From: a virus
Length of the DNA: 37,941 nt
Direction: 5' to 3' (one strand)
Virus record (IMG/VR): IMGVR_UViG_3300033571_029587
Coordinates: 1 to 37,941 of that record
Under the pieces are notes generated by a model that saw only the letters and a list, made by a program, of their open reading frames with translations, did not search any database and was not told the origin of the DNA. Position 1 is the stretch's first letter; the number at the start of each line of letters is the position of its first letter. The position numbers and the translations under genes are program-made. Of this stretch, positions 1,236 to 37,197 are shown piece after piece.

Positions 1236-1903
1236 GTCGTTTCACCTATGTTTATACGGAGGGTACTCTTCTTGTGCAAGCGGAACGGCTCCGAGCTGTT
1301 CGCCCTCTGGAACTGCACACAGTAATCTAGCGGTATGCGGTAAAAATCTTCTGGCTCACCGTCCTGTTTGTATCCCCTCTTGCACCTTTTGCGCACCCTG
1401 TGACACCCGTGCTCCGGCATCGTGAACCGGAAGCTGCTGGTGATGCCGCCTTGCCCCTTGAAGTTTTCGCCGCAGTGGTCCTGGGCCGCTTTCAGGCACT
1501 CCATGGGGATGAAGAGCATGTTGTTGCCTATTTCGACTCTGCTGCCCGAATCGTCCAGCTCGACATACTCGAACATGACCACGCACGCCGAGCAGCCCGC
1601 CCTGATGAACTGGCAGTACTTCCTCTTCCTCGTCTCCACGTCGACCCCGCCCTGCACATGCCACCAGAGGTCTGACCTCTTGACGGCAGCCTCGGCGTAG
1701 ATCGTTGCGTTGCCCTTCTTGAATATGAGGTCGGTGTTCGCCCAGTTGTGGACACCCTCCTCCATGTCGAACATCTCGCCCTTCCAGCCACGGCCTTCCC
1801 AGAATTCGTAAGCCGCCTTCTTGCCCAAGGCGTCAAACCTCCTGTGTCTTTCTGGGTTGAAGTGGTTGCTTACGTGGCCCTGAGAGTCGCAGTATGTGCT
1901 CAT
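1232..1903 (-). CDS. hypothetical protein, possibly nuclease-like
   Basis: This 223-residue protein starts with ATG overlapping the spoVR stop (ATGA). It is rich in aromatic residues and has several cysteines. One stretch, with NTDLIFKKGNATIYAEAAVK near residues 55-75, has a beta-strand/Asp then strand/Glu...Lys pattern reminiscent of the PD-(D/E)XK nuclease core. The Glu-Lys spacing is not canonical and I would not assign the family without a structure search. It sits immediately downstream of spoVR in what looks like one operon, so a role linked to the PrkA-YeaH-SpoVR module is possible but unproven. Confidence 0.65.
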   Translation of the reverse strand: MSTYCDSQGHVSNHFNPERHRRFDALGKKAAYEFWEGRGWKGEMFDMEEGVHNWANTDLIFKKGNATIYAEAAVKRSDLWWHVQGGVDVETRKRKYCQFIRAGCSACVVMFEYVELDDSGSRVEIGNNMLFIPMECLKAAQDHCGENFKGQGGITSSFRFTMPEHGCHRVRKRCKRGYKQDGEPEDFYRIPLDYCVQFQRANSSEPFRLHKKSTLRINIGETT

Positions 1904-3498
1904 GCCGTCATCGCCTCAAACTTCTTTCGGGTCATGACATCAACGGACTCGGGGCCGTCGCCGCTTGCGTAGTACATGACCTCATCGCCGTTGTCCCTTG
2001 CGGTCGAAAGCGCCACGTCCTTGCCCCAGATTGCACGCAGTGAGGAAAGAACGTCGGAGATGTAGGGTTCGTAGAGGGCACGACCGTCCGACTCGTGCTG
2101 GAGCATCATGATACCCCGACCTGCGTAGTTCGGCTCGGTAAGCTTTATGTCCGGCAGGCCGCCGTTGAGGTGACGCCTCATCAGGGACTCCTTGATCTTT
2201 CTGAAGTCACGGCTGTCGATGCGGTACTCGCCGTTGGGGTAGTGCTTCCAGTAGAAGTACTCCTGCTTCCTGCAGAACTCCTCTGTGAAGAACTCGTGGA
2301 TGAATGTGAGGTCGTCGTAGTACTTCCTGACCTCGAATATCTTCTCCTTGCCGAGATTGGTGGGTATCTCCCAGTTCTCCTTCTTGTGGAGGTCCTCGCA
2401 GTCCTCCCACTCCTGACCGAACCGGCCCTTGTCCCACCTCTCACGGATGTCCATAAGGAGGTAGTAGCCCAGCTTGTAGGGGTTCGTCGAGTACTTGCCG
2501 CCGAGCACGCCCATCTTGTGCTCACTGTACTCGACGATGCCACAGTCGTCTGAGGCCTGACCAAGAGAGATAAGGCCCTTCTCGCACATGATGACCGAGT
2601 CCGTCAGGCTAGCCCAGCCCTCGTTCAAAACCTTGGTCTGTCGCTGCGGGTAGAAGTACATCGCCTCCTCGTAGAGCATCGAGACAATGTCGGCCTGCCA
2701 TGGCTTGAGCGGAGCATTGTCCCTCACGAAGCCAAGTATGTTCTTGGTCGGGTTCTTGAAAATGCCGATCTCGTCGGCGACGTCACGGTCGTGCATCCTT
2801 TCGTTCTCCCTCATGCGGAATGATTCCGTGTTGAGGAAGGGCTCCATGTACATGCGCTGCTTGTCAACGACGAGACGTTTAGGAGTCCTATACTTCCTGA
2901 CGTCCCTAATGTTCTGCTCCTTGACGACACGCTCAGTCCATGCCTCAGCGCCGTCGATGAGGGTCTCGAGGCGCATCACATGGTCAAGGAACTCCGTGAC
3001 CCTCTCCTTGCCCCACCTCGCCATGTATTTCCTGATGCGGGTGCCGTGGTTCGCCATCTTGTTCAGCATGTTCGTGTCGGTCGCTGAAAAGTGGATGTTG
3101 TTCTTGAAGAAGTCGTTGTGACCCGTGGCGTGGGCAACTACCGTCAGGTGGTCCGTCAGGGTGTTAGAGGCGAGGTTATAAATATAGCAAGGGTTGCTGT
3201 TGATTACCATCTCATATATTTTGTGAGCACCAAACTCGTAACCACGCTGTAGCTCCTCGTACTCCATGCCGAACGACCAGTGCGGGAAGCGCACGGGGAA
3301 TCCACCGTAGGCTGCGATCTCGCTGATCTCGTCGTACGTGAGGAGCTGGACAACCGTGGGGTAGAAGTCGAGACCCCACTCCTTGCAGGCCTGAAGCACG
3401 ACGGGGATGTATTTCTTCAACTCCGGTGATAGCTGGACGCCCGGAACGGTGTTGTTGCCGAGCAGTATGCCGGAGCCGTGGAAGAACTTGCTGCTCAT
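1900..3498 (-). CDS. spoVR: SpoVR family protein
   Basis: This 532-residue protein is close to the usual length of SpoVR/YcgB proteins (about 500). Family features are visible: the FPHWSFG segment near residue 70, a NPCYIYNLASN segment followed by HATGHNDFF with conserved His, and the EGWA motif in the middle (about residue 291). SpoVR was named for a spore cortex defect in Bacillus; its homologue YcgB in enterobacteria is co-regulated with yeaGH under stress. The biochemical role is not established. The start is the ATG at 3498, overlapping the stop of the DUF444 gene as ATGA. A longer open frame extends upstream, but that part is the shadow of the DUF444 gene. Its order after prkA and yeaH copies the bacterial module. 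Confidence 0.93.
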   Translation of the reverse strand: MSSKFFHGSGILLGNNTVPGVQLSPELKKYIPVVLQACKEWGLDFYPTVVQLLTYDEISEIAAYGGFPVRFPHWSFGMEYEELQRGYEFGAHKIYEMVINSNPCYIYNLASNTLTDHLTVVAHATGHNDFFKNNIHFSATDTNMLNKMANHGTRIRKYMARWGKERVTEFLDHVMRLETLIDGAEAWTERVVKEQNIRDVRKYRTPKRLVVDKQRMYMEPFLNTESFRMRENERMHDRDVADEIGIFKNPTKNILGFVRDNAPLKPWQADIVSMLYEEAMYFYPQRQTKVLNEGWASLTDSVIMCEKGLISLGQASDDCGIVEYSEHKMGVLGGKYSTNPYKLGYYLLMDIRERWDKGRFGQEWEDCEDLHKKENWEIPTNLGKEKIFEVRKYYDDLTFIHEFFTEEFCRKQEYFYWKHYPNGEYRIDSRDFRKIKESLMRRHLNGGLPDIKLTEPNYAGRGIMMLQHESDGRALYEPYISDVLSSLRAIWGKDVALSTARDNGDEVMYYASGDGPESVDVMTRKKFEAMTA

Positions 3499-4700
3499 GA
3501 CCTGACCGCCTTTGCACCAAGCAGTTGCTTGATAGCCTCTATAATCTGCTCGTTCCTGTTGTCCTCTGTGAGCGGTGGCGTGGACCAGGACGGCGTGTTG
3601 TCGGGACTCCCGCCGACCGAGACCGTGCGGACGCAGTCGCCGTCGAGCCTGCCGCTCTTGATGGCCCCGTCCACGTGCTGCTTCACCGAGTCGGTGTAGG
3701 TAGACGCCATGATCTGGGTTATGCCCGTGAAGTTGACGACGTCGGGCTTGAAGTCCTCGGCGAGAGTCCTGATGAACTCCTCGTTGTCCTCGCCCCAGTT
3801 CTCGCCGTCCGTGAAGTAGAAGACGTATATGTTCCACTTCTCTGGGGGATACCTGTTCTCGAACTGCTGCTTGATGAACTTCAGGGCAGAGCTGCAGGTG
3901 GTGCCGCCGCCGAAGCGGTACTTGTAGAACTTGTCCTCGTCCACCTCCATGGCGGTCGAGTCGTGCCAGACGTATAGCCTGTCTACACGGTCGTAGAATC
4001 GCCTGACCCAGGTGTCGATCCACCACGCCATGTCGCTGACGACCTCGCACTTGGCCTGGTCCATCGAGCCCGATCCGTCCCTTGCGAAGACGATCAGGGC
4101 GTTGCTCGAGGGCAGCTTGATCTCGTTGAACTGCCGGTAGCGCTTGTCGTCGTTGATGGGTCGCAGAACCCTGACCGGGTCCTTCAGCCCCGGCACGTGC
4201 TCGAACTTGTCAAGGTTGCCCTCGGCGGCCTGCCTCCTGAGAGTCTGCATGAGAGTCCGCCGGTTGTGCCGCAGGGACTCCGGCCCGATGAGGGAGATCT
4301 TGTTGTACTTGATCTTCACCTCGTCGTAGATCTCGTTGGGCTTCCTCTTGAGGTTGGGAAGCTCAAGCTCGTCCTGCATGAACTTGAGGACGTCCTCGAG
4401 GCTGAGGTTGATGACGATGCCCTCGGACTCGCCTTGGCCGGCACCATTGCCCTTGCCCTTGCCCGGGTCCTTGCCGATTACATCGCCTTCCTTGCCAGGA
4501 CCACGGCCAGCCCCCTCGCCGCTACTGCCGTGGACGAGGTGAGGGATGTCGATCTTGGGGATGCTGATGCTGACCTTGCCGTTCTTGCCACGGTGTCGGA
4601 CGATCTGGCCGCTCTTGATGAACTTCTTGAGGGCCTTCCTGATTCGCCCGCTGACGACGTCACGGAAGTCCTTGTGATCCTCTTCTATACGGCGTGGCAC
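3495..4700 (-). CDS. yeaH: DUF444 / YeaH family von Willebrand A-domain protein
   Basis: This 401-residue protein matches YeaH/DUF444. It has a basic N-terminus (MPRRIEEDHKDF, typical of the family), a Gly/Lys-rich linker at about residues 75-115, and a C-terminal vWA fold with an intact MIDAS signature, DGSGS near residue 207, followed by a FTDGENWGED segment. vWA domains bind partners through a metal ion. The start is GTG at 4700, six bases after a GGAGG ribosome site. In bacteria the yeaH product is always found beside the PrkA kinase and SpoVR, and the same order is kept here, making a functional complex or pathway likely. How it acts is unknown in any organism. Confidence 0.93.
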   Translation of the reverse strand: MPRRIEEDHKDFRDVVSGRIRKALKKFIKSGQIVRHRGKNGKVSISIPKIDIPHLVHGSSGEGAGRGPGKEGDVIGKDPGKGKGNGAGQGESEGIVINLSLEDVLKFMQDELELPNLKRKPNEIYDEVKIKYNKISLIGPESLRHNRRTLMQTLRRQAAEGNLDKFEHVPGLKDPVRVLRPINDDKRYRQFNEIKLPSSNALIVFARDGSGSMDQAKCEVVSDMAWWIDTWVRRFYDRVDRLYVWHDSTAMEVDEDKFYKYRFGGGTTCSSALKFIKQQFENRYPPEKWNIYVFYFTDGENWGEDNEEFIRTLAEDFKPDVVNFTGITQIMASTYTDSVKQHVDGAIKSGRLDGDCVRTVSVGGSPDNTPSWSTPPLTEDNRNEQIIEAIKQLLGAKAVRS

Positions 4701-4759
4701 TACGCACCTCCGGTCGAAAATCCATCCTAATTATTCGGCCTGCCGCCTTTTTTCGGAGG

Positions 4760-4975
4760 CTACGGCTGCTTCAGCTCGAAGATGCAGGACATGTCCGACG
4801 GGTCGCTTGCGAAGTCCTTTATCTTCATGGCGAACATCAGGTCGGTCTGCTCGTCTGTGAGCGCAGCGAAGAAATCGCTGAGAGTCCCGTCCGAACCCCA
4901 GACGTCGAGGGCAATCCTGTCGATCTCCTCGAACATTTTCTTGTTTGCTGCGCTCCTGAGCCATGGGTTGTTCAT
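4760..4975 (-). CDS. small hypothetical protein between prkA and yeaH
   Basis: This 71-residue, mostly helical and acidic protein is preceded by a strong ribosome site (GGAGGTG, seven bases before the ATG) and lies 12 bases after prkA. The protein has no recognised motif. The C-terminal half is rich in Asp, Met and Phe. I know of no equivalent gene in the bacterial prkA-yeaH-spoVR cluster, so it may be a phage-specific modifier or substrate of the kinase. That suggestion rests on position only. Confidence 0.75.
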   Translation of the reverse strand: MNNPWLRSAANKKMFEEIDRIALDVWGSDGTLSDFFAALTDEQTDLMFAMKIKDFASDPSDMSCIFELKQP

Positions 4976-4987
4976 AGCTTCACCTCC

Positions 4988-7066
4988 TTACTCGTCTTCG
5001 GCCAAGTCGCCACGGGCGAAGATTCCGCCCACAAAGTCGAGCACATCGGTTGCGCTGCGCTCGTTGTAGCCAAACTCCTTGATGAGCCGTGTCTTGACCG
5101 CATCAATCTTCTCTTGGATGTCCTTGTCCACCACCGTGGCTCCGCTCACGTTCAGGGCGGACAGCTTGATGGTGTCCTTAACGTCCTCGAAGAGCTTGGC
5201 CTCGAGGGCCTTGCGCAGCTTCGGGTTGCTGTCCCACTGGAACGTCTTGCCCTCGTGGGCCAAGTGGCCGATGAACGAGGAGATCTGCCGACGGAAGTCG
5301 TCCGACCCAGTCTCGGGTATCTGAATCTTCTCCTCGATCGCACGCATCAGCCTCTCGTCCGGCTTGCGGTCTTGGCCGGTGATCGGGTCCTTGATCTTCG
5401 ACTTCGAGATGTACGCCATCACGTTGTCGATGTAGTTCGTGCAGAGTCGCTTGATGGCCTCCTTGTCGCCCACTAGAGCCTTCTGGACTTCGGTCTTGAG
5501 GATTTCAGTAAGCTTCTTGAGGGCGAGGTCGATGCAGGTGATGTACCGGCCGACCTGCTCCTTGTTGGTGAGAAGCGAGCTGTGGTCAAGCCCGTCACGT
5601 AGCTCGTTGAGAACCATGAACATGTTCACGTAGTCGTGGTTGTTCGACAGGCAGTTGCTGATCTTGTCCTGCAGGTAGCGCACGCTCACGCCGCCCTGCA
5701 TCCCCTCGTCGGGGTACTTGTCCTTCAGCTCCTTGACGGCGTCCTCTGTCCAACCCGGCAGCAGCTTTCCATCGTAGAGCTCGGCCTTCTCGACCAAGCT
5801 GAGCTTGCCGTCCTTGTCGTCGGCCAGACGTGTCAGGATGCTCCAGAGGGCCGCAATCTCGAGGGTGTGCGGTGCGATGTGCTGTCGAACTTTGCCGGGG
5901 CCGTAGTCCTTCTCGAGGATCTTTAGCTCCTCAGACCACCGCAGGGTGTAGGGCACGTCGATCTTGGTCGTTCGGTCACGGAAGGCCTCCATGTACTGGT
6001 TGCTCTTCAGCTTCTGGAACTCCGGGTCGTTCGTGTGGGCGATGATCGCCTCGTCGATGCTCACCTGGCTGAACTTCTTGGGCTTCACGCTCTGCTCCTG
6101 ACTTGCGCCGAGCAGGTCGTAGAGGAAAGCCGTGTCGAGCTTCAGGGCCTCGATGAACTCGATGATGCCACGGTTGCCGACGCAGAACTCACCGTCGAAG
6201 GAGAAAGCCCTCGGGTCTGAGTCGCTGCCGAAGTTGCCGATCTGCCGGAAGTTGATGTCTCCGGTGAGCTCGGTGCTGTCCTGGTTCTTCTCGTCCTTCG
6301 GCTGGAAGGTTGCGATGCCGCAGCGGTCGGCCTCGCTGAAGACCTTTCGCACGACACGGATGTGCTTCTCCAGCACCTTCTGCAGGTCGCCGTCGTATCG
6401 CTTCAGAAGCAGGGTCATGAACTTCTTGCAGAGCGGGTCGAGCTCGTCGTTGCACTTCAGCGTGTAGAGCTCGGGCCTCTTGTCGTCGGGCGTCTGCTCC
6501 TCGAGGATGCGGTTGAGGTCGGCGATCACCTCCTGTCGCTGCTCGACGGGGAGAAGCTTGAGGGGCTGCTCGTGCATCGGGCACTCGCACTCAGTGTCGT
6601 TGTAGATTCCGTCCGGGCCGGTCGGCAGGTCGATCCACTTGAAGGAGTACCATGCGCCGGCATCGGTATGGGAGTACTTCTCCATGTTCCTCTTGATGAG
6701 TCGGCACAGCGTCGACTTGGAGCTGCCAACGGGGCCGTGGAGGAGGAGTATGCGCTTCTCGGTGCCGAAGCCGCCTGCGGCGCCCTTGATAAACTTGACG
6801 ATTGCGTCCTTCATCGGGACGAGGCCGATGATCGGGTAGTCCGGGTCGTCGAAGAAGTTGTAGTTCTGGTATGTCTTCCTGTACTCCTCGACCGTCGTGC
6901 TGCCCTTCTCCATAATCATGTCGTACAGAGTCTGCCAAGAGTTGCGCAGCAGCTTGGGCTTCTCGTAGCAGAGCTCCAGGTACTCGGCGAAGCTCATCTC
7001 CGTGTGTATCTCACGGAACCTGTTGCGGTTGAAGCTGCCGACCACCTTGCTGAAGATATCGCTCAT
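4988..7066 (-). CDS. prkA: PrkA family serine protein kinase
   Basis: At 692 residues this is slightly longer than E. coli YeaG/Bacillus PrkA (about 630-645). The N-terminal AAA-like domain has the characteristic family Walker A, GPVGSSKST, at residues 111-119. The N-terminal stretch with FAEYLELCYEKPKLLRNSWQ is typical of PrkA, as is the C-terminal region with SGATVVDKDIQEKIDAVK. PrkA proteins are described as serine kinases with an AAA+ core that act in sporulation, nitrogen-starvation and stress responses. The ATG at 7066 follows an AGGAAT-type site. It is the first gene of a minus-strand operon continuing to yeaH and spoVR, with a TATAAT box about 40 bases upstream and a terminator isolating it from the previous unit. 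Confidence 0.94.
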   Translation of the reverse strand: MSDIFSKVVGSFNRNRFREIHTEMSFAEYLELCYEKPKLLRNSWQTLYDMIMEKGSTTVEEYRKTYQNYNFFDDPDYPIIGLVPMKDAIVKFIKGAAGGFGTEKRILLLHGPVGSSKSTLCRLIKRNMEKYSHTDAGAWYSFKWIDLPTGPDGIYNDTECECPMHEQPLKLLPVEQRQEVIADLNRILEEQTPDDKRPELYTLKCNDELDPLCKKFMTLLLKRYDGDLQKVLEKHIRVVRKVFSEADRCGIATFQPKDEKNQDSTELTGDINFRQIGNFGSDSDPRAFSFDGEFCVGNRGIIEFIEALKLDTAFLYDLLGASQEQSVKPKKFSQVSIDEAIIAHTNDPEFQKLKSNQYMEAFRDRTTKIDVPYTLRWSEELKILEKDYGPGKVRQHIAPHTLEIAALWSILTRLADDKDGKLSLVEKAELYDGKLLPGWTEDAVKELKDKYPDEGMQGGVSVRYLQDKISNCLSNNHDYVNMFMVLNELRDGLDHSSLLTNKEQVGRYITCIDLALKKLTEILKTEVQKALVGDKEAIKRLCTNYIDNVMAYISKSKIKDPITGQDRKPDERLMRAIEEKIQIPETGSDDFRRQISSFIGHLAHEGKTFQWDSNPKLRKALEAKLFEDVKDTIKLSALNVSGATVVDKDIQEKIDAVKTRLIKEFGYNERSATDVLDFVGGIFARGDLAEDE

Positions 7067-7178: not shown

Positions 7179-7514
7179 TCAGGTGACCTCTCCGAAGTTG
7201 GCGTCGTCGCCGAGGTCGTCGATATGGTTGTAGGGGTCAGCGCCACGGTGGGCAAGCTCTGCGTTCTTGCGTTCCTCGATCACCTGAGGCAACTTGTGCT
7301 TGAACCTGTAGTCGTGGCCGGCGGACTCGCTGTTCCACTTGTCCGTGCCCTCCGGCTGGGCGAATGCGAAGCTGCATGTCGTCATGAGCTTCGTCTTCGA
7401 CCTGCTTCCGCAATGCGGGCAGGACACGTCCTTGTACTTGCCCGTCGGATCAAATGGCACAAGATCGTTGTACCCAGCGTTGCATTTCTTGCATGAGAAA
7501 GAAAAAGTCGGCAA
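7179..7514 (-). CDS. FmdB-like zinc-ribbon protein
   Basis: This 111-residue protein opens with the FmdB/CxxC zinc-ribbon pattern: MPTFSFSCKKC followed about 20 residues later by CPHCGS, giving two CxxC knuckles that would bind one zinc. Small FmdB-type ribbons are common in phages and bacteria; their role is usually unknown or regulatory. The C-terminal half (about residues 60-111) is hydrophilic and resembles no family known to me. The likely start is TTG at 7514, just after a GGGGTG ribosome site. Confidence 0.75.
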   Translation of the reverse strand: MPTFSFSCKKCNAGYNDLVPFDPTGKYKDVSCPHCGSRSKTKLMTTCSFAFAQPEGTDKWNSESAGHDYRFKHKLPQVIEERKNAELAHRGADPYNHIDDLGDDANFGEVT

Positions 7515-9252: not shown

Positions 9253-9749
9253 TTACATTTTGGCTGGCCGGAGTCGTCGCCTGGGTCTGCCTGCGGAAAA
9301 CAGACCCATCGGACAGGCAGCCGACCACCTCGAAGATGATCGAGGTGAGAGATATAGAAAAGAAGCTTTCTGAAATCATGTCTTTCAGGACAGCCATAGA
9401 CGACGACTTCGCACAGGTCGTCGGCGTGGCCTCATTCACGACTACAACGAGGATTTACCCTCTACACCGCCACCAGAACGGCGACTTCTACGACAGCCGT
9501 GGGATTGATGACTTCGAGTTGGAGGCATTGGACTACGACATGTCGGTGGCCTGCCAGCCGTCCAACGACCAGAAATATCTTTTTACGATAGAGATTCTGG
9601 GACGCACAGAGCAGCGCACGTCACCGCAGCTAGTGCAAAATATGAAAAAGGCCATGATCAGAAGGCTGGCGCTCAACTTCGCCGACGAGCTGATCTTCAT
9701 TCAGCACTATAGCGACGTGCAAGTGAAGAGCGTGGAGGAATCGCCCTAG
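9228..9749 (+). CDS. hypothetical protein with N-terminal membrane segment
   Basis: The start at ATG 9228 gives a 173-residue protein with a hydrophobic helix at residues 4-23 (LPAILITFWLAGVVAWVCL), then a soluble domain of mixed strands and helices (VVGVASFTTTTRIYP, KYLFTIEILGRTEQ). It overlaps the end of the Cys-rich gene by 25 bases with GAGGG upstream, so translation is likely coupled. A longer open frame exists upstream, but that part is the Cys-rich gene in another frame. No family recognised. Its stop overlaps the convergent hldE stop. Confidence 0.65.
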   Translation: MRSLPAILITFWLAGVVAWVCLRKTDPSDRQPTTSKMIEVRDIEKKLSEIMSFRTAIDDDFAQVVGVASFTTTTRIYPLHRHQNGDFYDSRGIDDFELEALDYDMSVACQPSNDQKYLFTIEILGRTEQRTSPQLVQNMKKAMIRRLALNFADELIFIQHYSDVQVKSVEESP

Positions 9750-11140
9750 CGCATCCTGCGAATCCTGTCTAGAAGCCTCGTCGTGGAGTGCCCCGGCAGC
9801 ATGGGGATTCTGATTATCTCCGGCACTATCTCCCTGCCGACGATGGATGACTCGGCGTACTCGTCGCCCTTGGCCACCGCATCAGGCATTATCTGCCTAA
9901 TCACCTTCTCCGGGCTGTCCTCGTCGAATACTACAAGATAGTCAACATACTCGCAGGCCATGAGCATGGCCAGACGCTCGTCAAGGCTCTGCAGAGGTCT
10001 GCCAGGCTTTAGCCTCGATACGCTGCTGTCCGTGTTGACCGCAACGACCAGCTTGTCGCCGTGAGACCTCGCAACCTTCAGGGAATGCATATGTCCCGGG
10101 TGAAGGAAGTCGAAGCAGCCGTTGGTGAAGACAAGACGGTAGTCCCTGCCGGCGAAGAACTCACGCAGGTCACCTTCGACTAGCTTGCTTCCGCAGGGAT
10201 CGAGAGCCATGCGGATTGAAGATGTGGATAGCGGCTCGTTGTGCTTGTTCCTGACGTAAAGCGATCCGGCCTCGTAGGCGATGCCGACCGATGAGCAAAT
10301 ATCATGGCCCCTGCACAGAGCCATAGTCATGAAGGCAACGAAGCAGTCACCGGCACCAATGACGGACTCCACCTGGCCATTTCGTGATGGCCTGCCTAGG
10401 AACGCCTCCGGCTCATTGGGGCGGAAGACGCTGACGCCCTTTCCGGCACGTGTGACGACAACGTTGCAATCCAGCATGGAGACCAACGCTCTGCCCGCCT
10501 CGGAGACGGTCGGCTGCCCTGATAGACGCAGCGCCTCAGACTCGTTGGGCTTGAAGATGGTGCAGCCCCTCCACCTGCGTATGTCGCCAAGCTTCGGGTC
10601 AACTACGCTCACCGGAAAACGAGGCAGGCACTCGGTGCGGACCTCGCTAAGAAGTCCCTTGCCGTAATCAGAGAACACGACGGCATCGAATCTCTCGGTC
10701 TCGAGAGTCTCCCAGACCTCCTTAGACTTCAATGTCATGAGGTCTGATCCCATGCCGTAGTCTTGGGCCTCAACGTCAAATCGACAAAGCGGGAATCCAG
10801 AGCTGTAGAGCCTCTTCTTCCTCGGGTTTCTTCCGCCCATCAGCCGAGAAATCCCAGTGTCTACGCCGCACTGAGTGAGCAACCGCTTGGCGTCTAAGTC
10901 CAGCAGGGCGATCAGCCGTGCTTCATACGGAAATTTGCTGAACTGATAGGCAACATTGGCTGCGCCACCCGGCCTCTCGACAGGCATGTCCTCGTTGCAA
11001 GCCATGACCGGAATTGGGAACTCCGGAGACACACCCTTGACGCTGACATCGTAGTACTGGTCTATCATGGCGTCGCCCACGATACCGACGCAGTATCTCC
11101 TGTCAGGGCAAGAACTGACAAAATCTAGCAAGAGTGACAT
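9746..11140 (-). CDS. hldE: bifunctional heptose 7-phosphate kinase / heptose 1-phosphate adenylyltransferase
   Basis: This 464-residue product has both HldE (RfaE) domains. Residues 1 to about 320 are a PfkB/ribokinase kinase: an N-terminal GDAMIDQYY, PGGAANVA, and the catalytic GAGDCF. From about residue 335 there is a cytidylyltransferase-like domain with TNGCFDFLHPGHMHSL carrying the HxGH site. HldE phosphorylates heptose 7-phosphate and adds AMP to heptose 1-phosphate on the way to ADP-heptose, the donor for Gram-negative LPS core. The length equals that of the E. coli enzyme (477). The start is ATG 11140 after GGAGGTG. That ribosome site is buried in a hairpin. GmhA, GmhB and HldD are not in the window, so host enzymes must complete the pathway. 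Confidence 0.92.
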   Translation of the reverse strand: MSLLLDFVSSCPDRRYCVGIVGDAMIDQYYDVSVKGVSPEFPIPVMACNEDMPVERPGGAANVAYQFSKFPYEARLIALLDLDAKRLLTQCGVDTGISRLMGGRNPRKKRLYSSGFPLCRFDVEAQDYGMGSDLMTLKSKEVWETLETERFDAVVFSDYGKGLLSEVRTECLPRFPVSVVDPKLGDIRRWRGCTIFKPNESEALRLSGQPTVSEAGRALVSMLDCNVVVTRAGKGVSVFRPNEPEAFLGRPSRNGQVESVIGAGDCFVAFMTMALCRGHDICSSVGIAYEAGSLYVRNKHNEPLSTSSIRMALDPCGSKLVEGDLREFFAGRDYRLVFTNGCFDFLHPGHMHSLKVARSHGDKLVVAVNTDSSVSRLKPGRPLQSLDERLAMLMACEYVDYLVVFDEDSPEKVIRQIMPDAVAKGDEYAESSIVGREIVPEIIRIPMLPGHSTTRLLDRIRRMR

Positions 11141-11146
11141 TTTCAC

Positions 11147-11169
11147 CTCCGCCAAATTCTAAGGCGGAG
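11147..11169 (-). promoter_or_regulatory. hairpin that occludes the hldE ribosome binding site
   Basis: On the minus strand CTCCGCC pairs perfectly with GGCGGAG (11163-11169 with 11147-11153) across a 9-base AT-rich loop. The 3' arm contains the hldE Shine-Dalgarno GGAGG, four bases before the ATG. There is no T-tract, so it is not a terminator. It could hold hldE translation low unless melted by coupling, a protein or temperature. Confidence 0.6.
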
Positions 11170-13317: not shown

Positions 13318-13731
13318 ATGGGAATGTTTTCAGACGAATCGACATCTCCGGGTTTCAGCGAGTTCCGTGCCCTGATGGACAGGTGGGACTACGACCTTCA
13401 AATACTGGCAGAGCACGACAAGATCGAAAAAATCCTCGAGAAGCACGACCTGATCCTCTTCTTCAAGAAGGGCAAGGACATCTTCGGTGCGCCCGAGGAG
13501 AGCAGGCTCATATTCGCCAAGCTTAAGACGGACAAGGAAGACGACCCCATGCAGCCTGGCTTCCGTGAGGAGGCCAGGTTCCCGGCCGTCAACCTCCTCA
13601 AGTGCATGGAGGGCGAGGACGAGAACGGCATCGAGTCGGTGTTCGGCCTCAAGGACCTACCGAAAATCAAGGTCATCGACAGGGAAGAGGCCATCAAGCA
13701 GATGATGGCCTTCAAGAAGAGCAAAAAATGA
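13318..13731 (+). CDS. hypothetical protein
   Basis: This 137-residue protein starts at ATG 13318, seven bases after GAGG, and is rich in Lys, Asp and Glu. It looks alpha-helical (WDYDLQILAEHDKIEKILEKH) with short strands. Its stop overlaps the start of the nuclease gene (ATGA), so both are translated together. I do not recognise a family. It could be a partner of the nuclease. Confidence 0.65.
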   Translation: MGMFSDESTSPGFSEFRALMDRWDYDLQILAEHDKIEKILEKHDLILFFKKGKDIFGAPEESRLIFAKLKTDKEDDPMQPGFREEARFPAVNLLKCMEGEDENGIESVFGLKDLPKIKVIDREEAIKQMMAFKKSKK

Positions 13732-14405
13732 ACAACCTTCCCTTCGACAAGCCCTCCGGCAAGAGACGTTACCAGTGTTTCGTTTGCGGAAACCAATTCG
13801 AGGCTTACGAGGAGTACAAGGGCCACATCCTCGACAGCCACGAGGAGGGCCGTGAGTACGTGCTCTGCCCGCTGGACCGCTGCGGTGCGCCCGTGCGCTG
13901 CGTTCGCACGCACTTCAAGGCCAAGCACCCATACGACAGCATGCCGAAGTCGGGACAGATGAAGGCCATCATATGGAAGGACAAGACGGGCGGAGGCGGC
14001 CTCAAGGAGAGGCGGCCGCTTTTCAGGGAGGGCTACATGATCTCCACCAAGAATGGCGGGAAGGAGATGCACTACAGGTCAGGCATGGAGTGCGACGTGT
14101 ACGAGTGCCTCGAGGCGATGCCAGAGGTGATTGGCTACGAAGTCGAGCCATTTGCGGTGCAGTACACCTTCGAGGGCACTGTGCATGACTACAACCCAGA
14201 CCTGAAGGTGAGCTTCAGCGACGGCAGAATCGAGATATGGGAGATCAAGCCTTCCAGCCAAACGATGTTAGCGAGGAACAAAGCGAAATGGACAGCATGC
14301 GACCAGTACTGCCAAGCAAGAGGATTCGGATTCATGGTGTTGACAGAAATAGGCATGAGCAAATTAAAGCAGCAAATAAAGGACTTAAAAGCATCAAGGT
14401 ACTAG
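13728..14405 (+). CDS. TnsA-like / T4 gp4-like nuclease with N-terminal zinc fingers
   Basis: This 225-residue protein has two C2H2-type zinc knuckles at its N-terminus (Cys17, Cys20, His33, His38; then Cys47, Cys52, His62, His67). A restriction-like nuclease domain follows: YRSGMECDVYE with a helix Glu at 121, then NPDLKV (Asp158) and EIWEIKP (Glu172, Lys174), the PD-(D/E)XK triad. The same core occurs in TnsA and in T4 gp4, the head-completion nuclease. Given the phage context, a DNA-processing or head-completion role is the best guess. The zinc fingers are not part of T4 gp4. From about 14263 to the end, codon use shifts to A-ending codons unlike the rest. Confidence 0.72.
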   Translation: MNNLPFDKPSGKRRYQCFVCGNQFEAYEEYKGHILDSHEEGREYVLCPLDRCGAPVRCVRTHFKAKHPYDSMPKSGQMKAIIWKDKTGGGGLKERRPLFREGYMISTKNGGKEMHYRSGMECDVYECLEAMPEVIGYEVEPFAVQYTFEGTVHDYNPDLKVSFSDGRIEIWEIKPSSQTMLARNKAKWTACDQYCQARGFGFMVLTEIGMSKLKQQIKDLKASRY

Positions 14406-28276: not shown

Positions 28277-29122
28277 ATGAGCAACCTACATATCTATTTC
28301 GAGACGGGTGCGGTCGGGGACACCTGCCTGAACCTCTGCCGGGCGCACGCTGCCATGAGGCACGGCGGCCACGACGGTGTCGTCGTGCACACGAGCCCTG
28401 TCTTCCGGTTTGGGAACCCGCCAAGGGCCATACCGAGCAGCCCTGACGTCAAGGAAATACTCCGAAGGTCGCACTTCATCAGGGATGTCGTCTACGAGAT
28501 CGACTACTCGGACGCCGAGAGCTTCAGGACAAGCAAGAAGTACGGCTGCCCGATCGAGCAGCCTATGGTTTTTCCTGCGGAAAACGACGTGAGGCTCTAC
28601 ACCGACCTTCGGGATTACACGCCAGACTACGACCCTTCCGCCAAGGTTGCGCTGCTGCAGCCCATAAGCCTGCGCTTCAAGCCACAGGAACGGATCGACG
28701 ACTACATCCCCGTGTGGGATCGCTGCGTCAGGGCACTGCGTGAGAAGGGCTACGATGTGGTCATCGTCGGTGGCCAAGAAGACCCAATCCAACTCACCAT
28801 GTCGCCTTCGTCGCTCAGGGAGTGCAGCATCAAGGTTGGTTCGTGGAGCATGCTGCAGTCCGTAGCCTTCTGCATCTACAGGGCCGACATAGTCGTCGCC
28901 TGCGACTCGTGGGCGGCAATATGGGGCCCGGCCGCCAAGGTCAAGACGGCTATCGCCTGGGGCTACAGGATGGAGAGCGACATAGACTTCTGGGTCACCG
29001 GCTTTTTGGGCAACAAAGACTTCTATAAGCATGGGTGGTCGTCCCAGAAGGACTACTGCGACGCCGCTCTTGCGGCATACATAAGCAAAACGATCAGGGA
29101 AAGACAAAATGGCCAAGTATGA
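28277..29122 (+). CDS. GT9-like glycosyltransferase (heptosyltransferase family)
   Basis: This 281-residue protein starts with IYFETGAVGDTCLNLCRA, the GDxLxxxP-like opening of ADP-heptose:LPS heptosyltransferases (GT9, GT-B fold). The C-terminal half has YDVVIVGGQEDP and DIVVACDSWAAIWGPAAKVKTA, corresponding to the D-S/T-G-xxH-xA-A site, although the usual His is replaced. It is shorter than WaaC/WaaF (about 320-350). The 14-base overlap with glf suggests joint expression. With hldE it might use ADP-heptose, but the donor may differ. Confidence 0.68.
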   Translation: MSNLHIYFETGAVGDTCLNLCRAHAAMRHGGHDGVVVHTSPVFRFGNPPRAIPSSPDVKEILRRSHFIRDVVYEIDYSDAESFRTSKKYGCPIEQPMVFPAENDVRLYTDLRDYTPDYDPSAKVALLQPISLRFKPQERIDDYIPVWDRCVRALREKGYDVVIVGGQEDPIQLTMSPSSLRECSIKVGSWSMLQSVAFCIYRADIVVACDSWAAIWGPAAKVKTAIAWGYRMESDIDFWVTGFLGNKDFYKHGWSSQKDYCDAALAAYISKTIRERQNGQV

Positions 29123-30242
29123 TTATCTGATAGTCGGCGCCGGATTCTTCGGATCTACCTTCGCAAGGAAGATGACCGACAACGGCAAGAGGTGTCTGGT
29201 CGTCGACAAGCTGAACCATGTCGCCGGAGCCGCATACGACAGGAAGTGGGACAACGGCGTCATCGTGGGCGACTACGGAGCGCACATATTCCACACGCAG
29301 TCAGAGGAGGTGTGGGACTTCATCAACCGATTCGCCGTGATGGACAGCTTCGTAAACAAGCCAAAAGTCCTCTCCAAGGGCAAGATTTACTCCTTCCCTA
29401 TCAACATGATGACATTCCACCAGCTATGGGGAGTCGTCACCCCGCAGGAGGCTTGGGAAAAGCTGCAGAGCGTTCGCATACCCTGCGATAGCCCGAGAAA
29501 CTTTGAGGAGTGGATCCTCGACAAGGTCGGACGTGAGCTGTACGAGCTCTTCTTCTATGGCTACACCAAGAAGCAATGGATGAAGGAGCCCTCAGAGCTT
29601 CCGGCCTCAATCATACAGAGGCTGCCTATAAGGCTGACCTATGAGGAGAACTACTTTACGACGAAGTACCAGGCGATGCCGAGGGAGGGGTACGGCCGCC
29701 TAGTTGAAAACATGCTTGACGGCATAGACGTGGAGCTTGGCACGGACTTCTTCGTCATGCACAGCGACTGGCGCAGGTACGCCAAGACTTTGGTCTACAC
29801 GGGTCCGGTTGACAAGTTCTACGGATACCAGCACGGCAGGCTGGAGTACAACACGCTCCGCTTCGAGCACAAGGTGTTCAAGGGTGACCAGCAGGGCAAC
29901 GCCGTGGTCAACCACGTCGACCTCGACGTCCCGCACATCAGGACGATCGAGTGCAAGCACTTCTACGACCGGCGTCTGGCGAAGCACTACGACAGCAAGG
30001 GCCCGGACGGCTCAGAGAGCGTAGTGACCTATGACATCCCGGTCTCGTTCGAGAGCCACCCAGAGCCCTACTACCCAATCCGTGACGAGCGAAACAGCGA
30101 GATTTACAACAAGTACATGGAGATCAAGGATGGCGAGCCGGACGTGATCTTCGGGGGCCGACTCGGCGAGTACAAGTACCTCGACATCGACCAGACGATG
30201 GGCTCGGCGATCACAAAAGCCAAGGCGTTGCTGGGCATATGA
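29109..30242 (+). CDS. glf: UDP-galactopyranose mutase
   Basis: Glf converts UDP-galactopyranose to UDP-galactofuranose using FAD. This 377-residue protein is full length (E. coli Glf 367). Landmarks: VGAGFFGSTFA (FAD Rossmann loop, residues 9-19), GDYGAHIFHT, FPINMMTFHQLWG, a YQAMPREGYGRLVENML segment and VYTGPVDKFYGY with LEYNTLRFE. All key regions appear intact. Galactofuranose occurs in bacterial O-antigens and capsules. It lies between two GT9-like genes on the plus strand, suggesting a galactofuranose-containing glycan. Confidence 0.94.
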   Translation: MAKYDYLIVGAGFFGSTFARKMTDNGKRCLVVDKLNHVAGAAYDRKWDNGVIVGDYGAHIFHTQSEEVWDFINRFAVMDSFVNKPKVLSKGKIYSFPINMMTFHQLWGVVTPQEAWEKLQSVRIPCDSPRNFEEWILDKVGRELYELFFYGYTKKQWMKEPSELPASIIQRLPIRLTYEENYFTTKYQAMPREGYGRLVENMLDGIDVELGTDFFVMHSDWRRYAKTLVYTGPVDKFYGYQHGRLEYNTLRFEHKVFKGDQQGNAVVNHVDLDVPHIRTIECKHFYDRRLAKHYDSKGPDGSESVVTYDIPVSFESHPEPYYPIRDERNSEIYNKYMEIKDGEPDVIFGGRLGEYKYLDIDQTMGSAITKAKALLGI

Positions 30243-30248
30243 TTGAAA

Positions 30249-30274
30249 GGGGGCCAAGGTTTCCCCTGGCCCCC
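30249..30274. terminator. probable terminator after glf
   Basis: A perfect 8-bp stem, GGGGGCCA/TGGCCCCC (30249-30256 with 30267-30274), starts six bases after the glf stop. No T-tract follows on the plus strand, so it may be an intrinsic pause or a processing hairpin. The rest of the gap up to 30447 holds no gene I can support; a small GGTTTTC/GAGAACC-type hairpin lies near 30350. Confidence 0.5.
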
Positions 30275-30447
30275 TGCCCCGGCGGAGTTCTTTTGCTCCT
30301 TTTGGGTCAACCACAGCCGCTGCCACAGGCATTCCGGCTCTGCATAAGGTTTTCCCGAGAACCAGCCAATGATCCGGCATCCACGCAGGCAGCCTGAACA
30401 ATGAAGGCTAGGGTCCAAGATGAGGGTTTACCAAGGGCAACCTATCT

Positions 30448-31458
30448 ATGTTCCGCCTGGTCAAAAAGAAGCAGACCGAACCTGTCACGCTGCGTGAGCA
30501 CAGCGAGAGACGAAACCGTGTCCTGCTGCGACGCCGTGCCGGCGGGGTCGGCGACATACTCATGCAGCGCATGATGATGGAAGACATGTCGCAGACATTC
30601 GACGGCCTGCGACTGTTCTTCACCTGCCCTGACACTTACCTGTTTTTCGCAGAGCGCAACCCATATGTCAGCACGGTGCGCCTAGCGGAGGTGATCGACC
30701 GTGACTACGGCATAATCTACGACATCACCACGGCATGCAGAGTCCACGAGTCAAGGCTTGGTGGCAGAAACAGAACTCACAGGAGCGACATCTGGGCCGC
30801 CTTCTGCGGGTGCACGCTGACGAATCACAGGATGCACCTGAGGGCCGACGACACAGAAGCCACCAAAATGCTCAAGGAAAGTCTGAAGTTAAGGAACCCA
30901 GAAGGTAAGCCGACAGTCTTGATAGCTCCGCACTCCCAGAACGACCTATTCGGGACGGCCAAGAGCCTAACCAACCTTCAGATCGCAGGACTGGTAAGGC
31001 ATCTCCACTCAACCGGGCACAAGGTAATTTCCGTGCACAACAGCCACATCGAGATCCTGTCGATGCTTGGCGTCGATCAGTACGTGAATGTTCCGAGCGA
31101 GACATGGCTCTACCTGACAGCCCTTTCGGACTACGTGGTGACCGTCGATACGGGCACTTTCCACATGGCCGGGGGCCTCGGAAAGCCGATGGTAGGGGTG
31201 TTCACATTCACCGACGGCAAGGTGTACGGCAAGTACTATGACTTCATCCTCGTGCAGAAGCACAGGGACGACGGGTGGGACTGCGGGCCATGCTTCGTGG
31301 TGACCAGTTGCCCCAAGTCGGATGAGCCGAGGAAGCCGTGCTGCACGGAGCTGCGCCCCGAAGAGATAGTCGCCGGATTCGAGTCAGCCAGACGCAGATG
31401 GCCCATGAGAGGGGATGACGACAAGCTCGACGCCGGCCTCAGTGAAGAGCTGGCGTGA
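30448..31458 (+). CDS. GT9 glycosyltransferase (heptosyltransferase family)
   Basis: This 336-residue protein has the GT9 opening RRAGGVGDILM and, near residue 232, VTVDTGTFHMAGGLGKPMVGVF, which matches the family's D(S/T)GxxHxAxxLGxPxVxLF signature with the nucleotide-binding His. Length matches LPS heptosyltransferases. It is not membrane-anchored. Its last 75 bases overlap, tail to tail, with the dCMP deaminase gene. No good ribosome site is seen before the ATG, so the first residues are uncertain. Donor may be ADP-heptose, given hldE in the same genome. Confidence 0.85.
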   Translation: MFRLVKKKQTEPVTLREHSERRNRVLLRRRAGGVGDILMQRMMMEDMSQTFDGLRLFFTCPDTYLFFAERNPYVSTVRLAEVIDRDYGIIYDITTACRVHESRLGGRNRTHRSDIWAAFCGCTLTNHRMHLRADDTEATKMLKESLKLRNPEGKPTVLIAPHSQNDLFGTAKSLTNLQIAGLVRHLHSTGHKVISVHNSHIEILSMLGVDQYVNVPSETWLYLTALSDYVVTVDTGTFHMAGGLGKPMVGVFTFTDGKVYGKYYDFILVQKHRDDGWDCGPCFVVTSCPKSDEPRKPCCTELRPEEIVAGFESARRRWPMRGDDDKLDAGLSEELA

Positions 31459-35874: not shown

Positions 35875-37197
35875 CTACCCCCTCGACCTGATAGCCTTCA
35901 GGCTGTTCAGGTTGCGCCCTCCCCTGCAAGAGACCTTAAGCCGCAGCCCCGGTTTCAGAGACGACTCAGCCGTAAGTATCTTGAGGGCCACCGAGTGGAC
36001 CTCACGCCAATCAGCCTTGTCCACATAGACGACATATCCATCGTGAACAGTATACGCAATTCGAGCCTTGTCTTTCAAAGCGAAATAAAGGTTTATCAGT
36101 TTCTCTGAGCATATAGTCGAGGCTGGCGCCTGCACCGCAAAGTTCCTTGCGAGGTAGTCCTTCCCCGGCGGGAATCCACGCCGCACCTTGCCGAAGTCGT
36201 CACGCACGAAGCCGGATGAGGCAAGCTGCCTCTCCCTGTCGATGACGTACTCGTTTGCGACTGCGAACTCCGACCTGATCCTGCCGACGACCTCATCGGC
36301 ATGGTGCTTCGGTATGGACATACGGGCAGCCACGGCGGTGGCCCCCTGACCGTATATAACCGGCAGGAAAACTTTTTTTGCGAATTCCCTGCCAGCCGAG
36401 TCCTCGCAAGGCCGGCCGGTTATGGCCTCGTAGATCCCGCAGTAGATGTCCTGTCCTAGGCAGAGCTGGACCAGCCTCGGGTCCCGGCTGAGGCTTGCGA
36501 GGACATACACCTCCATGCCCCTGAAATCGAAGGACATGAAAATGTCGTCGTAGGCAAGCGGCTTGAGGTTTTCCCGCACGGCCTCGCCCATCGTGTGGGG
36601 CACGAAGCCGTTCCTGTAGGCGTCGTGGCACTTTAGCCTGCCGTTCTCCTGCCCGTCAATCTCGTAGTAGGAATGTACCTTCAGCGATCGTGAGGAGTCC
36701 ACAATGCCGATCGCCTCCATCGACGGCAGCACAATCTTCATGAGCGGGAGATGGACGTTACGGTAGACGGCCTCTGCGAGCCGGTAGTCGCCGGACTCCA
36801 CAAGCCTCCTCAGCCTGCCCATGGCCTCGGAGAAGGTCTTGGGGGCCGATCCGCCACGGTTTCCCGTGTACGACTCTAGGACCTTAAGGTCTATCACGGA
36901 GCAGTCGACCTGCGGCACGTGGCCGGTCTTCGCAGCAACGAAGGTGCAGAACTGCTTGAAGTTCCAAGCAAGAAGCTTGCGGTCGCCTGAGAAGACCGTG
37001 AGCTTGAGAATGCTCACCACCAACGGCAGAGAACGTGAGTCCATCGAGACGGACAGAGTGGAGCCGTCCTGTGCGACTATCTCGAGGGTGTTGGACGAGT
37101 CCCTGTCCGTGAAGTCGAATATCTCGGGCAGCGACCGCACGTAGACGATCTTGCCGGAGCGACGCTCAAGGAAATCGACGAGTGTTTCGATGGACAT
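35875..37197 (-). CDS. polA: short family-A DNA polymerase
   Basis: This 440-residue protein has family-A polymerase motifs in order: SFDFRGMEVYVLA (motif A, about residue 224), REFAKKVFLPVIYGQG (motif B, about 275) and VHDGY (motif C, about 384). The catalytic Asp residues are present, but motif C reads HDG rather than the usual HDE. The N-terminal third has a LLAWNFKQF...DLKVLESY pattern like a decayed 3'-5' exonuclease (Exo II region) without its acidic residues. Ordinary phage Pol A proteins are 550-700 residues. It may lack proofreading and act in repair or as accessory to the DnaE-like polymerase. Start at ATG 37197. Confidence 0.83.
   Translation of the reverse strand: MSIETLVDFLERRSGKIVYVRSLPEIFDFTDRDSSNTLEIVAQDGSTLSVSMDSRSLPLVVSILKLTVFSGDRKLLAWNFKQFCTFVAAKTGHVPQVDCSVIDLKVLESYTGNRGGSAPKTFSEAMGRLRRLVESGDYRLAEAVYRNVHLPLMKIVLPSMEAIGIVDSSRSLKVHSYYEIDGQENGRLKCHDAYRNGFVPHTMGEAVRENLKPLAYDDIFMSFDFRGMEVYVLASLSRDPRLVQLCLGQDIYCGIYEAITGRPCEDSAGREFAKKVFLPVIYGQGATAVAARMSIPKHHADEVVGRIRSEFAVANEYVIDRERQLASSGFVRDDFGKVRRGFPPGKDYLARNFAVQAPASTICSEKLINLYFALKDKARIAYTVHDGYVVYVDKADWREVHSVALKILTAESSLKPGLRLKVSCRGGRNLNSLKAIRSRG

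Follow-up and report, generated by a model that had tools for sequence, protein, structure and literature searches.

The poorly understood PrkA–YeaH–SpoVR triad is common across bacteria. In E. coli, YeaG and YeaH jointly quiet metabolism under nitrogen starvation and thus act as a metabolic brake (PMC10954441). Phosphorylation of AceA by YeaG has been reported in vitro in the presence of malate (PMC8055822), and the K426A mutation abolishes YeaG function (PMC4664914). The kinase and protease activities of B. anthracis PrkA, as reported, are negligible (PMC13001217). Among phages, Ralstonia phage RsoM2USA was reported to carry SpoVR and PrkA (PMC8504454), and our literature search found no paper discussing the triad in phages.

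Gene content of the locus

The window analysed here is a whole IMG/VR record of 37,941 bases, a fragment whose record has no listed completeness. Its minus strand encodes PrkA, a 71-aa protein, YeaH and SpoVR at 1900–7066, all intact. The original prediction, made from the sequence alone, described the triad as present in order and full length with intact Walker A and MIDAS motifs, and the open reading frames, Pfam matches and residue alignments bear this out. The prkA gene (4988–7066) encodes an AAA+ protein of the PrkA/YeaG family (692 aa), in which an AAA_PrkA domain (PF08298, 3.9e-79, 266.7 bits) is followed by the PrkA C-terminal domain (PF06798, 8.2e-77, 258.8 bits), against a Pfam cut-off of 25; it matches 9xip_A, ‘Serine protein kinase’ (1.1e-207). 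The yeaH gene (3495–4700, with a GTG start at 4700) encodes a DUF444 vWA/MIDAS protein of 401 aa (PF04285, 2.6e-62, 211.7 bits against a Pfam cut-off of 27) and overlaps spoVR by 4 bases. The spoVR gene (1900–3498, ATG at 3498) encodes an intein-free SpoVR/YcgB-family protein of 532 aa that covers positions 6–404 of the 407-position profile PF04293 (1.1e-105, 354 bits). A PDB sequence search with SpoVR and YeaH returned no match for either. As predicted, the gap between prkA and yeaH holds a conserved phage gene for a 71-aa protein (4760–4975) with a strong ribosome site, AAGGAGGTG, upstream. All four genes are under purifying selection, with dN/dS of 0.075–0.092 against the nearest relative; the value for the small gene, which was studied in a 19-sequence alignment, is 0.092.

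The neighbouring genes lie on the same strand. Upstream of prkA is an FmdB-type zinc ribbon gene (7179–7514, 111 aa; TIGR02605, 2.4e-8), and downstream of spoVR are a 223-aa ORF that overlaps the end of spoVR (1232–1903), a 71-aa ORF that looks coiled-coil-like by eye (1020–1235), and the 5' part of dnaE (3–716; DNA polymerase III alpha with a PHP domain, PF02811 4e-30, phrog_405 1.3e-50), which is cut by the window edge. All of these except the 223-aa ORF are conserved flanks. Of the three genes after spoVR that the original prediction called unknown, the third is DnaE; the 223-aa ORF matches no known family. The surroundings of the module in the window consist of replication, nucleotide and glycosylation genes without virion genes, and include a phage replication set of UvsX, gp32-like SSB, DnaB helicase, DNA polymerase and ThyX. 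The window carries two polymerases, the DnaE-type one at 3–716 and another at 35875–37197, which matches phrog_17. By eye, the stretch at 28277–31458 contains sugar-related genes, including a UDP-galactopyranose-mutase-like ORF (29109–30242) and possible glycosyltransferases. A further ORF at 13602–14405 has an N-terminal part that appears zinc-finger-like by eye, and its C-terminal part resembles head-closure and endonuclease families of PHROG. Scanning the whole window for Rfam families and tRNAs gave no matches.

Vertical inheritance in a huge-phage lineage

Scanning IMG/VR with the window PrkA yielded 136 related stretches, and we read the best 80 of them together with the 595-kb phage LR756511, giving 81 loci. 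In clade A, the phage clade of the window, prkA, yeaH and spoVR follow one another on one strand in all 74 loci with at least 3 kb downstream, usually with fmdB upstream and dnaE downstream. Among loci with room, the order is the same in 61/61 from a second phage group and in 45/63 from bacteria. LR756511 encodes a T4-type Gp23 capsid protein (5e-87) and a terminase (4.4e-6). We then compared the three proteins with bacterial copies in trees that took in 47 bacterial loci; these were the ones with a complete triad among the 80 bacterial loci nearest in PrkA, a set restricted by the search pattern. In these unrooted trees, phage PrkA, YeaH and SpoVR were each set apart by a single branch (SH-aLRT 96, 99 and 99, respectively), and the window paired with the same relative, L004, in all three. 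Pairwise distances correlated within the triad (r=0.78–0.90) and with dnaE (0.68–0.79). When loci were chosen by DnaE similarity alone, the triad or a visible part of it was found in every case with room, with the single exception of the relative L373. These results establish that the window holds the bacterial PrkA–YeaH–SpoVR stress operon in an intact phage version, which has passed down vertically among huge phages with T4-type capsids, purifying selection maintaining it as a single functional unit. Viral carriage, as predicted, and co-inheritance of the triad are thereby confirmed: the search of viral gene neighbourhoods found a resident operon, each protein forms one phage clade rather than scattering over unrelated lineages, long relatives carry capsid and terminase genes, and the flanks are not those of a bacterial chromosome.

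Membership of the small gene, and of the genes after spoVR that the original prediction suggested might belong to the same system, found no such support. In the 81 loci read (the best 80 of 136 plus LR756511), the 71-aa gene at 4760–4975 was present in 29, always between prkA and yeaH, and was not found in the other 52, all with prkA; fmdB was the upstream neighbour in 78, the 1020–1235 gene was present in 46 and the 223-aa gene in only 4. The incomplete 103.6-kb contig of L373 lacks PrkA, SpoVR and DUF444 but still has fmdB and homologues of both the 71-aa protein (1.7e-7 with the first profile) and the 1020–1235 gene; the stretch where these neighbours remain and the triad is missing lies at 2889–3862 of that contig. 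DnaE places L373 inside the phage clade (97% branch), and the natural reading is a block loss of prkA, yeaH and spoVR, relocation to a part of the genome outside this contig being less likely. Since L373 lost exactly the triad and kept the 71-aa gene, neither that gene nor those after spoVR are probably module subunits. We accordingly rejected the 71-aa gene as a fourth subunit, and also the genes after spoVR as module members, being either rare (the 223-aa gene) or kept without the triad (1020–1235). The AlphaFold model of the 71-aa protein (pLDDT 84.5) consists of helices and a hairpin and had no significant PDB match. Among the genes further away, an HldE-like bifunctional heptose kinase/adenylyltransferase (9746–11155 in the window), which could feed sugar modification, lies near the module in 69 of the 81 loci (again the best 80 of 136 plus LR756511).

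Active-site residues and inteins

The AAA+ residues of PrkA are strictly conserved. Its Walker A motif is GPVGSSKST with K117, and K117, E303, E306, N346 and R365 are invariant in 100 sequences that include phage, bacterial and E. coli copies. K117 is the Walker A lysine, and by the general pattern of AAA+ proteins we take E303, E306, N346 and R365 to fill the roles of Walker B glutamate, sensor asparagine and arginine finger. The putative catalytic lysine of YeaG, K426, aligns to D467 in the window PrkA. Of the 34 other clade-A copies, 33 also have Asp at this position, as do 46 of the 47 bacterial kin that were sampled. The replacement of this lysine in nearly all kin, together with the negligible kinase activity of B. 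anthracis PrkA (PMC13001217), weakens the original proposal of a kinase that phosphorylates phage targets and supports the view that protein phosphorylation is probably not the conserved activity of PrkA; we therefore treated PrkA as an AAA+ machine first. In YeaH the MIDAS motif (DxSxS, T, D) is complete, comprising D208, S210, S212, T267 and D298, and is identical in seven diverse homologues.

Phage and bacterial SpoVR share a set of invariant residues, among them E96, N100, H123, H127, N292, E293, G294 and A296. The HxxxH motif reads H123-A-T-G-H127, in which the position of the HExxH glutamate is Ala here and Val in the sampled bacteria, and the spacing in E. coli-type SpoVR is HxxxxH. NEGWA is kept, and the residue at +7 (position 300), the final His of NEGWAxxxH, is Asp in the window and in 73/73 clade-A phage copies (57 plain and 16 behind an intein), while it is His in 114 copies (63 phage-B and 51 bacterial), a distinction drawn from our own alignment and not from a curated family rule. 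As the family score is unambiguous despite the His-to-Asp change, we regard clade-A SpoVR as a variant still within the SpoVR family. An AlphaFold2 model of SpoVR (pLDDT 86.8) places H123/H127 and E293/D300 on two helices. Foldseek with this model gave no match at E<=0.001, and in VIA-align comparisons with the Foldseek top-ranked structures the best were mostly zinc peptidases of several families (3o0y Z 12.1, LTA4H Z 9.8, M32 Z 9.3), where helical models can reach Z near 12 by common arrangement. We therefore suggest only tentatively that SpoVR, with its HxxxH and NEGWA motifs, adopts a zincin-like fold. The NEGFA motif of M1 peptidases bears the third zinc ligand, and SpoVR NEGWA resembles it; profile comparison gave no homology. 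An M1 peptidase detectable by sequence was rejected, as SpoVR had no Pfam zinc-peptidase match and no hhalign link to PepN. The catalytic glutamate of HExxH in M1-like zincins is absent (Glu to Ala).

In 22/76 clade-A loci, some of them near-duplicates, the SpoVR match is interrupted by in-frame inserts, either at one of two sites or at both. One site lies after YEMVVN and the other inside NEGWA|S. Sixteen of these loci were read through and contained no stops, and the inserts, extracted by a strict motif, are 403–440 aa long with Cys first and His-Asn last, features that identify them as probable inteins, presumably spliced. The intein-bearing phage loci include L005, L012, L014, L038, L040, L054 and L063, and the bacterial ones L185, L191, L196 and L209. 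The same NEGWA site holds an insert in four genomes of Chloroflexota, Chloroflexus islandicus and Oscillochloris among them. The Oscillochloris insert is 43% identical to the phage inteins, which suggests that inteins moved between the two or came from a shared origin. Inteins tend to occupy functional motifs, so both SpoVR motifs are likely important. A literature search found no paper linking SpoVR with inteins.

Possible function and relation to known systems

Taken together, we propose, at about even odds, that the phage operon is a vertically inherited AAA+/vWA machine that acts with SpoVR to set the metabolic state of the host, phosphorylation not being its conserved activity. PrkA would form an ATP-using AAA+ ring, with YeaH as its adaptor or co-chaperone through the MIDAS metal site, as in other AAA+/vWA pairs. 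SpoVR, with its zincin-like HxxxH/NEGWA site, would be the partner that PrkA/YeaH loads, remodels or delivers to a target. By supplying its own copy, an infecting phage might shift its host towards low metabolism and stress adaptation, conditions that would favour infections that are long or interrupted, as the E. coli YeaG/YeaH phenotype suggests. That a phage could set the starvation state of its host, as originally predicted, is plausible given the braking effect of YeaG/YeaH on E. coli metabolism, and a phage that brings such a brake seems the most economical idea. Against it, one relative, L373, does without the module. A bolder version is doubtful: SpoVR would be a zincin-like effector with a metal site loaded by PrkA/YeaH, large phages would have captured the machine on at least two or three occasions to control the dormancy of their hosts, and one huge-phage lineage would have fixed His-to-Asp at the metal-site motif, altering chemistry or specificity.

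The main rival is that the operon serves assembly of the phage particle or of replication complexes, the AAA+/vWA chaperone and its metallopeptidase-like partner folding or processing phage proteins. Jumbo phages of another group carry a MoxR AAA+ protein and a vWA-metallopeptidase fusion, proposed to act in virion assembly (PMC7824862), so that the same three functions recur in unrelated proteins; the triad is also retained beside dnaE much like a core gene set. We nevertheless consider assembly unlikely and lean towards the host-state role, because the module sits among replication, nucleotide and glycosylation genes and is dispensable in L373; in addition, the bacterial homologues work in stress and sporulation without any phage. 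That PrkA is a true Ser/Thr kinase of host or phage proteins agrees with the family name, with AceA phosphorylation by YeaG and with the K426A phenotype (PMC8055822, PMC4664914), but is improbable given the Asp at the K426 position in the window and nearly all kin and the B. anthracis result.

Large phages often carry genes for superinfection exclusion or counter-defence, and loss of the triad as a block in L373 would suit an accessory operon that remodels or inactivates a defence protein. Such a role is quite improbable, however, in view of the near-universal retention of the triad in the lineage, and PADLOC models of known anti-phage systems gave only an incidental weak PRTase_III-A match to PrkA (E 0.0009). 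The triad is typically bacterial, which might point to a fragment of bacterial chromosome misclassified as a virus, but the chance of this is negligible, and we rejected such an artefact on the phage replication genes in the flanks, the separate phage clade in the trees and the capsid- and terminase-bearing 595-kb relative. With a triad inherited as a unit, natural loss of the module, a motif change and inteins, this huge-phage lineage makes a poorly understood machine easier to study, and directs attention to SpoVR H123, H127, E293 and D/H300 and to the AAA+/vWA/SpoVR complex. If phages indeed hold host metabolism down in this way, viruses would be carrying bacterial dormancy control.

Among the known systems closest to the phage operon, the bacterial prkA–yeaH–spoVR operon of Phycisphaerae, Calditrichota, Myxococcota, Chloroflexota and Bdellovibrionota has the same three families, order and strand, with PrkA 51–55% identical. 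The phage copies differ in forming their own clade, in having Asp instead of His at SpoVR position 300, and in the phage-specific small gene after prkA in some members. YeaG, YeaH and YcgB of E. coli belong to the same families at 27–28% identity, but YeaG has K426 where the phage PrkA has Asp, and ycgB lies elsewhere on the chromosome, not adjacent to yeaG/yeaH. In Enterobacter phage LAU1 (MN688132, 1–3308), YeaG and YeaH are 98% and 93% identical to those of E. coli; being near-identical and at the record end, they are probably the host flank of a prophage and not phage genes.

A phage-borne triad is not new, since versions of it occur in at least two further groups of phages, and phage carriage is already known in annotation from Thermus phages, 634–642-kb phages and RsoM2USA. 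The isolated Thermus phages phiYS40, TMA and MN1 have DUF444, SpoVR and PrkA together, as in the window; the annotation names SpoVR and PrkA, and we recognised the DUF444 protein by alignment. SpoVR of phiYS40 has Asp at +7, like clade A, whereas the gene order differs (yeaH-spoVR-(x)-prkA in phiYS40, yeaH-spoVR-prkA in MN1) and the proteins, at 20–33% identity, form a separate clade. The huge phages LR745206, LR756502 and LR756504 (634–642 kb) likewise carry PrkA and SpoVR, but their PrkA, unlike that of the window, is of the E. coli YeaG-like type (62–65% identical to YeaG), the SpoVR of related IMG/VR copies carries His at +7, and prkA and spoVR are far apart in LR756502. This E. coli-like version, that of the second phage group with its 61/61 loci in the shared gene order, also occurs in 79 IMG/VR loci, some on contigs of 200–415 kb, with a terminase in five of the six tested. 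The MoxR–vWA–metallopeptidase pair of group 2.2 jumbo phages (PMC7824862) likewise combines an AAA+ ATPase, a vWA protein and a metallopeptidase-type domain, but its AAA+ protein is of a different family and its peptidase is fused to the vWA protein, so that the likeness lies in the combination of functions and no homology is claimed.
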